NCBI GenBank assembly: GCA_028818385.1
Contig: JAPPNY010000200.1
Span: 1-36,265, forward strand
DNA from: Spirochaetaceae bacterium
GTDB taxonomy: Bacteria; Spirochaetota; Spirochaetia; SZUA-6; Bin103
Length of the DNA: 36,265 nt
Direction: 5' to 3'
The notes under the pieces are model-generated. The model made no database searches. It saw nothing but the letters and a program-made list of their open reading frames with translations, and was not told the origin of the DNA. Shown one piece after another: positions 12,536-22,972 of this stretch (positions are counted from its first letter, which is position 1; each line of letters starts with the position of its first letter). A program made the translations under genes and the position numbers.

Positions 12536-12772
12536 ATGGAGCTCACAGCAGAGACATTCAAATTGCTGGCCGCCGCGCTGGCCATCGGCATCGGCGCGCT
12601 CGGCCCCGGCATCGGTATCGGCCTCACCGCACTCGGCGCCCTGCAGTCGCTGGGCCGCAACCCGGAGGCGCAGGGGATGATTCGTACCAACATGCTGGTC
12701 GGCATGGCCTTCGCGGAGTCCGTGGCGATCTACGCCCTGGTCATCGCGCTCATCATCCTGTTCGTGCTCTAG
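12536..12772 (+). CDS. atpE: F-type ATP synthase subunit c
   Basis: This is the ion-carrying proteolipid of the Fo rotor ring. The 78-residue hairpin has a Gly-rich first helix ([20 protein letters not shown]), the polar loop GRNPEAQG, and a second helix with the ion-binding glutamate at residue 61 ([18 protein letters not shown]). Sodium-type rings usually combine this Glu-Ser pair with a glutamine in helix 1. Here the equivalent position (28) is isoleucine, so proton coupling is more likely. The TAG stop codon is the outer edge of an inverted-repeat element separating atpE from atpF. A likely promoter lies immediately upstream. Confidence 0.95.
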
Positions 12773-12844
12773 TACCCCATCAAACTGATGTCCACGGATA
12801 CCAGGAAATGTCTACCCCGAAACCACAGTTTGATGGGGTACTAG
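12769..12844 (+). repeat. Palindromic intergenic element, copy 1 (MITE/REP-like)
   Basis: The perfect 19-base inverted arms CTAGTACCCCATCAAACTG (12769-12787) and CAGTTTGATGGGGTACTAG (12826-12844) flank a 38-base centre. The left arm includes the TAG stop of atpE. The element can be read as TACCCC...GGGGTA bordered on both sides by CTAG, which may be a 4-base target duplication. The left arm also contains its own small palindrome CATCA-AAC-TGATG. A second copy lies at 22898-22972 with matching arms and a related centre (ATGTC at its left edge, an AAAC.A motif at its right edge). No protein is encoded. Confidence 0.85.
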
Positions 12845-12870
12845 CGATGCCCCGGTTGGATTCGTAGGCG

Positions 12871-13374
12871 ATGGAAGCGCTCGGAGTCTCGGTGATCGGA
12901 CTGGCCGCCTATGCGGCCAACTTCATCATCCTGGTCGTGCTCCTGCGGCTGTTCCTGTACAAGCCGGTGAAGGCGATGCTGGCCCGCCGCCAGCAGAGGA
13001 TCGCGGACGGGCTGGAAGCGGCCGATCGGGCCCAGAACGAAGCGGAAGGCCAGCGCGCCGCCTTCGAGCGCGAGCTGGCAGCCGCCCGCGATGAGGCGCA
13101 ACAGGAGGCGCGTGCCGCCGCGGAGGCCACCGAGCGCATGCGCGGCGATGTGCTGCAGGCGGCCCGCGATGAGGCGGAGGAGATCAAGGCACGCGCCCGC
13201 GAGGAAGCCGAGCGCGAGCGCCAGCAGGTGGCGGCCGACCTGCAGCGCGAAGCCGGGGAGCTGGCGCTGCTGATCGCCCGCAAGGTGATCGCCGACGCGG
13301 TCGACCCGGCCGCGCACCGGGCGCTGGTCGACCGCGCGCTGGCCGACATCGGTAGGATGCGTGAGCCCCGGTGA
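12871..13374 (+). CDS. atpF: F-type ATP synthase subunit b
   Basis: This is the peripheral stalk that holds F1 against rotation. The 167-residue product has one N-terminal membrane helix (AANFIILVVLLRLFLYKPV, residues ~15-33) and a long charged coiled coil rich in Ala/Glu/Arg (residues ~35-140, e.g. AARDEAEEIKARAREEAERE). The end LLIARKVIADAVDPAAHRALVDRAL contacts subunit delta. ATG 12871 is forced by an in-frame TAG two codons upstream. The gene comes 26 bases after the palindromic element. The only nearby upstream G-rich stretch is GTAGGCG. The 3' end overlaps atpH by 14 bases. Confidence 0.93.
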   Translation: MEALGVSVIGLAAYAANFIILVVLLRLFLYKPVKAMLARRQQRIADGLEAADRAQNEAEGQRAAFERELAAARDEAQQEARAAAEATERMRGDVLQAARDEAEEIKARAREEAERERQQVAADLQREAGELALLIARKVIADAVDPAAHRALVDRALADIGRMREPR

Positions 13375-20879: not shown

Positions 20880-21713
20880 GTGAGTGCAGCGAACCACACC
20901 CGAAGGGTGGAGGACTACTACCGGCTCCTGGGTGCCGACCCGGAGGACTCACAGGAGCGGATCAAGCGCTGCTTCCGCCAGCGCGCCAAGGAGCTGCATC
21001 CCGACCTCACGGTGCTCGCCGAGGATCAGGCGGAGTCGCGGATGCGACGGTTGCTCGATGCGTACCGCGTTCTCGGCGACCCGGAACGGCGCCGCGACTA
21101 CGATCGGCTGTACGGCCACGCGCTGCGCCGACGCCGCTTCGATTACCGGTCGTTCCTGCGCGCCCGCGCCGATCCGGTGAGTCTGGCCAAGCTGGTGCTG
21201 TACGACTTGATGCGCTCACGCGACCGGGAGGCGCTTGCCACGTTCGGTCAGCTCGAAGAGCACATCGAATCCGATCTGGCGGCGCTGCTCGACTATGACG
21301 ACTTCATGGACTGCGCCTACCTGCTGGCCGAGGCGCTGGAGCGTGACGGCTCATACGGCAAGGCGTGCGAGTACTACATGCGCGTCTACCACGCAGAGGC
21401 AAGCCGTCCCTACTTCCGCCACTTCATCGCGGAGGTGGTCGATCGCCTCCGGGAAGTGGCGTGCGTCAAGATGGCCGGGACCGCGGCAACAGCGGACTCC
21501 GTGCGCTGGATTGAGGAGTTGATCGGCCTCAACCTGTCCGACCGGGATTCGGCGTTCTTCTGCAAGCGCATCGCCGAGATCTACTCCGAGGTGGGGGACC
21601 TGGAGGCGGCGCGGCGCTACTTGGAGCGGGCGCTGAGTCTGGACGAGCGGATTGCCGGCGTGCAGAAGCTCAAGGAGCGGGTCGGCCTGCGCGAACCGGT
21701 CATGCACGCATGA
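20880..21713 (+). CDS. J-domain (DnaJ-like) protein with helical repeat tail
   Basis: The 277-residue protein starts at GTG 20880. Residues ~10-75 form a J domain: EDYYRLLGADPEDSQERIKRCFRQRAKELHPDL contains the HPD tripeptide needed to stimulate DnaK ATPase, followed by MRRLLDAYRVLGDPERRRDYD. There is no Gly/Phe region or zinc finger, so this is not DnaJ itself but a type-III J protein. The rest is alpha-helical, and the C-terminus (AEIYSEVGDLEAARRYLERALSLDERIAGVQKLKERVG) fits a TPR-like repeat. It presumably recruits DnaK to a specific client. The SurA-like isomerase gene follows after about 50 bases. Confidence 0.85.
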   Translation: MSAANHTRRVEDYYRLLGADPEDSQERIKRCFRQRAKELHPDLTVLAEDQAESRMRRLLDAYRVLGDPERRRDYDRLYGHALRRRRFDYRSFLRARADPVSLAKLVLYDLMRSRDREALATFGQLEEHIESDLAALLDYDDFMDCAYLLAEALERDGSYGKACEYYMRVYHAEASRPYFRHFIAEVVDRLREVACVKMAGTAATADSVRWIEELIGLNLSDRDSAFFCKRIAEIYSEVGDLEAARRYLERALSLDERIAGVQKLKERVGLREPVMHA

Positions 21714-21761
21714 CCGGCAGGCGAGGTACGTATCCTGAACGTAAAGTAGTATTCTGAAGGC

Positions 21762-22901
21762 ATGAGGCAACTGTTCATACGGAGCGGCGCGCACGGCGCT
21801 CAGGCGGCAAGGGGACGTGGGTTCGTGCTCATGACCCTGGCTGTGGCCGGCATGGCGCTGATGAGCGCCGCGGCGGCTTGGCCGCAGTCGATCGCCAGGA
21901 CGGTGGCCACCCTGGATCTGCACAAGCCACAGATCATCTCGTCGCCTCAGTTCACGGCATTTGCCAGCATGGTGGCGCGCCAGAGCGGGCGCGAGACGCT
22001 GGATCGGGCCCAGTGCCGGACGGTACTCGAAGCGCTCATCGACGAGCTCCTCATCGAGCAGGAGGCCACCGAGCGGCGCCTGATCCCCACGGAGGCCGAA
22101 ATCGATCAGGAGGTAGTTGCGCGGCGCAGGCAGGTCGAGCAGCAGCTCGGCGCAGATCAGCCGTACACCGATGACGCGTGGCGGGCGGTCATCCAGCAGA
22201 ATTTCGGCCTGACGCCGGAAGAGTACCGGGATCGGCTCACCGCGCTGATCGTCACGGAGCGCCTGGCGGCGCAGATGCGTCCGGGCCGGCTGGAAGCGGT
22301 CGAGTTGCCGACAGAGGCGGAAGTCAGCGACTACTACGACTTGAACGGCCATCAGTTCTACCAGCCGAAGATGGCGCTGGTGCTCCACATCCACTTCCGG
22401 ACGCAGGGACTGGACGAGGCCGCCGTGAAGCAGGCACGGGAACGCGCCGCGGAGGCGCTGGCGGAACTGCGCGACGGCGCTTCCTTCGACGACCTGGTGG
22501 TGAAGTACTCGGACGACGGCAACTCGCGCTACGACGGTGGCGAGCTCGGCAATCGCTACCTCCGCCGGGACGATGCCAGGGTCGTGGAGACCCTGGGCGT
22601 GGGGTTCCTGAACACGATGTTCTCCCTGGAGGCCGGGGAGACCAGCGGGGTGGTGGAGTCCAACGTCGGCTTCCACATCCTCAGAATCGCCGACCGGATC
22701 GACGCCCGTCTGCTTACCCTGGACGACCCGGTGACGCCGCGCTCGCCGCAGACGGTGCGCGGACAGATCACCGCATTGCTTGCGACCAACCGACGGGTAA
22801 GCACCTCACAGCAGGTGGTCCAGGAGGTCATCACGGAACTGCGTGATCGGGCCGACGTCGAGGTCTTCACCGACAACCTCGAAGCCATCTGCTCGGCATA
22901 G
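21762..22901 (+). CDS. SurA-like periplasmic peptidyl-prolyl isomerase (parvulin type)
   Basis: The 379-residue exported protein has an N-terminal signal peptide (FVLMTLAVAGMALMSAAAAWPQS, residues ~20-43). A SurA-N-like helical chaperone region follows (RTVLEALIDELLIEQEATERR ... IDQEVVARRRQVEQQ ... NFGLTPEEYRDRL). One parvulin domain comes next, with LVLHIHF, FDDLVVKYSDDGNSRYDGGELG and GVVESNVGFHILRIADR. SurA escorts outer-membrane proteins, including LptD, across the periplasm in E. coli; a similar role for the LptD-like and barrel proteins here is inference. The TAG stop is the first bases of the second palindromic element. GAAGG is only one base before the ATG, too close for a normal ribosome-binding site. 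Confidence 0.87.
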   Translation: MRQLFIRSGAHGAQAARGRGFVLMTLAVAGMALMSAAAAWPQSIARTVATLDLHKPQIISSPQFTAFASMVARQSGRETLDRAQCRTVLEALIDELLIEQEATERRLIPTEAEIDQEVVARRRQVEQQLGADQPYTDDAWRAVIQQNFGLTPEEYRDRLTALIVTERLAAQMRPGRLEAVELPTEAEVSDYYDLNGHQFYQPKMALVLHIHFRTQGLDEAAVKQARERAAEALAELRDGASFDDLVVKYSDDGNSRYDGGELGNRYLRRDDARVVETLGVGFLNTMFSLEAGETSGVVESNVGFHILRIADRIDARLLTLDDPVTPRSPQTVRGQITALLATNRRVSTSQQVVQEVITELRDRADVEVFTDNLEAICSA

Positions 22902-22972
22902 CACCCCATCAAACTGATGTCGACGGGTCAAGTAGCACGGCACCCCCAAACTACAGTTTGATGGGGTACTAG
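22898..22972 (+). repeat. Palindromic intergenic element, copy 2 (MITE/REP-like)
   Basis: The right arm CAGTTTGATGGGGTACTAG (22954-22972) is identical to that of copy 1. The left arm ATAGCACCCCATCAAACTG (22898-22916) differs at two of 19 positions. The 37-base centre aligns with the first copy at both edges but has diverged in the middle. As in copy 1, the left arm contains the TAG stop of the preceding gene (22899-22901). TAG flanks both sides of the ACCCC...GGGGT core. The element separates the SurA-like gene from nusB. Confidence 0.85.

Follow-up and report, generated by a model that had tools for sequence, protein, structure and literature searches.

The question raised by contig JAPPNY010000200.1 of a Spirochaetaceae bacterium (assembly GCA_028818385.1) is why a short palindromic element occurs in it twice, each time with its left end on the TAG stop codon of the preceding gene. 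The whole stretch of 36,265 nt was analysed and is referred to as the window. The original prediction had described the two copies and proposed insertion into CTAG or TAG with target duplication, in the manner of a miniature inverted-repeat transposable element (MITE) of the IS5 type, IS denoting insertion sequence. The observation itself is real: two dispersed copies are present, having common ends, an inverted repeat, TA on both sides and a CTAG context. The reading as a mobile element is plausible; its main points, namely the mobility, the transposase and the family of that transposase, are what we infer from these features. The form of it that we tentatively favour, at close to even confidence, is a non-autonomous MITE moved by a DDE transposase having the IS630 target rule. 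The copies and their arms are as follows.

12769..12844, no strand assigned: copy 1 of the palindromic element, 76 bases including the CTAG borders, 70 between the two TA; RNA fold -36.5/-43.2 kcal/mol
12769..12787, plus strand: left arm of copy 1, including the atpE stop TAG at 12770-12772
12826..12844, minus strand: right arm of copy 1, CTAG at its end
22898..22972, no strand assigned: copy 2 of the palindromic element, 75 bases including the ATAG/CTAG borders, 69 between the two TA; RNA fold -34.5/-42.4 kcal/mol
22898..22916, plus strand: left arm of copy 2, including the stop TAG of a SurA-like gene at 22899-22901; two mismatches
22954..22972, minus strand: right arm of copy 2, CTAG at its end

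The arms of copy 1 are complementary at 19 of 19 positions around a centre of 38 bases, and those of copy 2 at 17 of 19 (A for C at 22898 and C for T at 22902) around a centre of 37 bases. The description in the original prediction is thereby borne out as to the 19-base arms, the related centres, the two mismatches in the left arm of copy 2 and the position of both left ends on TAG stops (of atpE and the SurA-like gene); the small motif CATCA-AAC-TGATG, which it had also pointed out, was found in the left half of both copies. In an ungapped alignment, the copies match at 27 of 31 positions from the left end and at 29 of 31 from the right end, and their middles (14 and 13 bases) are unalike. 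Two conserved ends thus enclose a middle that is free to vary, and past the common arm the left and right ends are no longer the same. Counted inside the TA, both copies have 16-base arms (one mismatch in copy 2) and a total of 69-70 bases with no coding capacity.

Compared with 100 dinucleotide shuffles of the window, the perfect 19-bp inverted repeat of copy 1 exceeds all of them, narrowly (maximum 18, mean 12.5), and it is the longest inverted repeat with close-set arms in the window. The longest exact block common to the two copies is 21 nt, a value that merely equals the maximum direct repeat in the 100 shuffles (21, mean 16.2), and a longer direct repeat of 29 nt starts at 26918 within a tandem array (26907-26966, 20-base unit, 3.1 copies). 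A second block of 19 nt is also common to the copies, the spacing being equal within one base. In our judgement, made without a joint simulation, two blocks at equal spacing together with the inverted repeat are far beyond chance. The RNA folds of each copy on each strand have z values of -5.4 to -7.0, none of 200 shuffles being as stable, and the minus-strand stem of copy 2 is maintained via a G-U pair. The 13-base arm core CCCCATCAAACTG has four exact matches in the window, which are the four arms. It has none at one or two mismatches and five at three mismatches, the number expected by chance.

The borders of the element are best seen against the frequency of CTAG, which is about tenfold rarer in the window than in shuffled sequence: it occurs 4 times in the 36 kb, compared to a mean of 39.7 in 100 shuffles (range 27 to 57) and of 40.3 in a second shuffle set. 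Three of these four are borders of the element, and the remaining one lies inside the open reading frame (ORF) 528-3446, uvrA by our reading. Candidate target duplications are given below.

12770..12771, no strand assigned: left TA of copy 1, interpreted as a target duplication paired with 12842-12843
12842..12843, no strand assigned: right TA of copy 1, interpreted likewise
22899..22900, no strand assigned: left TA of copy 2, interpreted as paired with 22970-22971
22970..22971, no strand assigned: right TA of copy 2, interpreted likewise

Copy 1 is bordered by CTAG on both sides, as had been proposed; in copy 2 the left border is ATAG and only the right one is CTAG. TA is therefore exact at both sides of both copies, whereas a duplication of CTAG is exact in copy 1 only. 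A TA duplication requires one arm change in copy 2, and a CTAG duplication requires a further one at 22898 (GCC to GCA before TAG, synonymous in the last Ala codon), so that TA takes one change fewer. The TA may also belong to the ends of the element instead of being duplicated target. Published observations agree with the IS630 target rule: the IS630 family inserts into TA and duplicates it (PMC2170065), the target 5'-CTAG-3' is recorded for one IS630 insertion (PMC6811581), and terminal inverted repeats together with terminal TA are found in most small bacterial mobile repeats (PMC2229807). The inverted arms, the conserved ends with a variable middle, the exact TA flanks and the location of three of the window's four CTAG at the borders all argue for a MITE of this kind.

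The position on stop codons was then considered together with the neighbouring genes.

12536..12772, plus strand: atpE, 78 aa, ending in LIILFVL; stop column common to 46 of 52 aligned homologues
12871..13374, plus strand: ORF 3' of copy 1, named atpF from its position; 98 nt from atpE, or 26 nt if the element is subtracted
21762..22901, plus strand: SurA-like peptidyl-prolyl isomerase gene, 379 aa, PF13145 and PF00639
22993..23418, plus strand: nusB, 3' of copy 2, PF01029, start taken from the ORF tool; 91 nt from the preceding gene, or 20 nt if the element is subtracted

The intergenic gaps of 98 and 91 nt would shrink to 26 and 20 nt if the element were removed, which are ordinary distances for an operon and are counted in favour of the MITE reading. 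Among the 27 ORFs that were picked as genes (starts and several names being our own reading), 23 have TGA as their stop and 4 have TAG; TAA is not used. Two of the four TAG-ending genes bear the element, and the TAG stops of the other two are embedded in TTTAGC and CGTAGG rather than in CTAG. Since there are few CTAG elsewhere and those within genes would be harmful to hit, a CTAG target rule would suffice to explain the position on stops, as far as two copies allow; the stop overlap would then be a by-product of a scarce target that can be tolerated where a gene ends.

The original prediction further held that the target would spare the coding sequence by regenerating the stop, and here the two genes differ. 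For AtpE, 4611 homologues were found, of which the best 120 were listed and the first 52 aligned: 46 share the end column of the window's protein, 3 extend beyond it, 2 stop one residue before it, and the tail of 1 (P0106) is different. The atpE stop is thus older than the element and was retained by the insertion. The closest homologues include P0089 at 99% identity, and the organism-named matches among the best 120 of the 4611 are from Chloroflexota, Anaerolineae and Patescibacteria at 64-72% identity. P0106 itself, on a contig of 17,447 bases, has 93% identity over 91% of the query and ends in AIYAYRTA, as would follow from a frameshift or insertion; this tail was compared with all reading frames of the two elements and fitted none of them. 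For the SurA-like protein, the first 70 of 87 homologues were aligned. The stop of the window, preceded by CSA, is shared by the ten best matches (P0001-P0010) and by fragment P0064. P0066 has the same end column but CPA as its last residues, P0068 stops one residue earlier, and another 57 are longer, mostly by three residues. Identities range from 97% (P0001) and 90% (P0002) to 74% for P0015, from a Spirochaetaceae metagenome-assembled genome, and 60% over two thirds for P0071, from a Geodia barretti sponge record. The TAG of this gene was either made by an earlier change or brought by the element. The proposal stands for atpE and may stand for the second gene.

Taken together, each copy would be an old insertion of a very short MITE that consists of two inverted ends of about 31 bases and a disposable middle of 13-14 bases and carries no gene. 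Excision of the element and its reinsertion into the TA within a CTAG, with duplication of the TA, would be the work of a transposase encoded at another place in the genome, most likely one of the IS630/Tc1 type of DDE enzymes. As CTAG is strongly avoided in the window and is harmless at an amber stop, where the insertion re-forms TAG, the surviving insertions would be those on stops, to judge from the two copies. The hairpin is presumably transcribed as part of the mRNA, in one case separating atpE from the gene that follows it and in the other the SurA-like gene from nusB, and it may affect the stability of the message or the relative expression of the genes.

Several points weigh against this reading. 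Only two copies are known, and the element is not A+T-rich, unlike most such repeats (PMC2229807). Because CTAG is self-complementary, duplication of TA, duplication of CTAG and no duplication at all are inseparable from two copies. In the SurA-like gene, the element may have brought the stop instead of finding it, judging from the 57 of 70 homologues that are longer. Finally, a full-length IS having these ends, for which the original prediction had suggested a search, was not found by exact patterns or blastn likeness in species genomes, viral contigs, phages and plasmids, a set that did not include the host genome.

These same searches gave few matches of any kind. In species genomes, both 13-base arms were matched once, by a Marinomonas hairpin (L001:1224-1277) that has the same arms CCCCATCAAACTG/CAGTTTGATGGGG but a longer stem continuing into CCCCCATCAAACTGAAAAGAACAG, no TA or CTAG borders and no common centre; we take it to be a chance match. 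Viral contigs had no match to both arms, to the 18-base arm or to either longer end. For one 15-base arm they gave 33 matches, none of them accompanied by a second arm at fewer than three mismatches within 3 kb of available DNA (5 of the 33 had one at three mismatches, 401 to 2541 bases away); these were judged to be chance. Phages gave no match, and plasmids gave one weak match in Streptomyces (query bases 2-34, 87.9%, E 0.2). The protein collection was also searched, with low sensitivity, for sequences that read through the element, and no candidate had three words in common with it.

The main rival to the MITE reading is a doublet like those termed REPINs, in which two inverted units resembling repetitive extragenic palindromic (REP) sequences, each having a CTAG head and an imperfect hairpin, are spread by a single-strand-specific Y1 (RAYT/TIRYT) transposase. 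The published architecture of REPINs matches, with conserved ends about 70 bases apart, a less conserved spacer and a long hairpin (PMC3116915). Moreover, GTAG REP termini often give a TAG stop to flanking ORFs and lie near gene 3' ends, and some families of terminal inverted repeats of Y1 transposases are self-complementary and occur in pairs (PMC3733652). The right half of copy 1 can be drawn as a REP-like hairpin (TACCCC-atc-AAAC-tgtg-GTTT-c-GGGGTA), and the right half of copy 2, folded by itself, is equalled in stability by just 0.65% of the 2000 controls in which the inner 15 bases were shuffled. However, this is the only one of the four halves that folds alone clearly better than control (0.0065), the other three not being significant (0.14, 0.21 and 0.17 of controls as stable). 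The heads are CTAG, CTAG, ATAG and CTAG, not the GTAG, GTGG or CGTC of REPs, of which CGTC repeats are recorded in Spirochaetes, and no lone unit occurs in the window. We therefore regard a REPIN-like doublet as rather unlikely.

Somewhat less probable still is a functional hairpin that is not mobile, that is, an RNA or DNA signal (an mRNA stabiliser, an attenuator or a protein site) copied to two operons and selected at gene ends. A strong fold directly 3' of the stop between genes of the same strand would agree with it, as would the G-U pair that preserves the minus-strand stem of copy 2, the greater conservation of the ends than of the middle, and the SurA-like stop column that is common to the ten best matches and fragment P0064, as if the arrangement were old. 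On the other hand, the two operons have no evident common regulation, the identity of the arm sequence is not needed for structure alone, and the CTAG borders are left unexplained. No Rfam family reached its gathering score over the elements, where only sub-threshold microRNA models were seen.

An IS5-type MITE with a four-base duplication of CTAG (YTAR), the form originally proposed, is in our view improbable. Its best precedent is MITEPsy1 of Pseudomonas syringae (given as IS5 with a question mark in the published table), which is 100 nt long, has 18-nt terminal inverted repeats and duplicates CTAG or YTAA (PMC3189936). CTAG is present on both sides of copy 1, and the change required in copy 2 is synonymous. 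Nevertheless, the ATAG at the left of copy 2 costs one more change than a TA duplication, and the ends are unlike the printed ends of MITEPsy1, the sole IS5 ends that were compared. A short element with terminal inverted repeats inserted at CTAG is thus what fits best, as originally proposed, whereas IS5 in particular is not specifically supported, the IS630 preference being published and taking one change fewer.

No better odds can be given to a further idea, in which the doublet palindromes would form a family of their own in sponge-associated spirochaetes, one that is so far undescribed and belongs to neither the GTAG nor the CGTC REPs. Its CTAG head would both pick amber stops and be able to supply a stop, so that it would spread through operons replacing gene ends harmlessly and leaving strong 3' hairpins. 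Nothing on such repeats was found in listings of the sponge-spirochaete literature, which is no claim of their absence from print, and no mention of IS630, CTAG or REPIN was found in the available portion of one MITE review (PMC10969869).

The remaining explanations can be dismissed: an intrinsic terminator by the lack of a T run 3' of the stem on the plus strand and by the close next gene on the same strand (the terminator scan, which allowed loops of 3-8 bases only, was blind to these stems), an integron attC site by arms unlike the consensus and by the housekeeping context, and a chance palindrome by the fold and inverted-repeat shuffles.

Elsewhere in the window, a tandem array of the 17-base unit CATGAAGCAGGCCGCTG and its variants (in a 34-base form 91% alike) lies at 35513-35581, just 3' of a tRNA gene (35420-35491), and another, of about 4 copies of a 15-base unit, at 30145-30207. 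An ORF of 1045 aa at 3443-6580, flanked by the uvrA-like ORF and phoH, did not match any Pfam family at 1e-4.

Returning to the MITE with the IS630 target rule, what we describe belongs to a known kind of small element, its family being the inferred part, in an unusual location but of an ordinary type. Should copies throughout the genome be found on TAG stops, the family would illustrate cleanly how a CTAG target rule can keep a transposon from doing much harm in a tightly packed, G+C-rich genome, and how a mobile element can change the 3' ends within essential operons, that of ATP synthase among them.

Among known systems, MITEs derived from IS630/Tc1-mariner elements (RUP, and Correia/NEMIS similar in kind) are likewise short and gene-less with terminal inverted repeats and TA on both sides, and IS630 itself is recorded at the TA in CTAG, as is the element here. 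RUP is longer, at 107 bases compared to the 69-70 between the TA here; the present element is not A+T-rich, and no partner IS was found in the collections searched. REPINs, or BIMEs with GTAG REPs, share two inverted conserved ends, a variable spacer, a long hairpin, the position at gene 3' ends and TAG-supplying termini, so that an overlap with the stop is not new in kind, the supply of TAG by GTAG REPs being published (PMC3733652); their head is GTAG or GTGG rather than CTAG, and the element has no lone units in the window. MITEPsy1 is comparable in size class, in the length of its terminal inverted repeats and in its CTAG target, whereas the sequence of these repeats is different and the four-base duplication is inexact in copy 2. 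The SMR elements of Haloquadratum (80-110 bp, inverted ends, no known partner) are similar as well, but they lack target duplication and are mostly inside other mobile elements, whereas the two copies described here lie in housekeeping operons.

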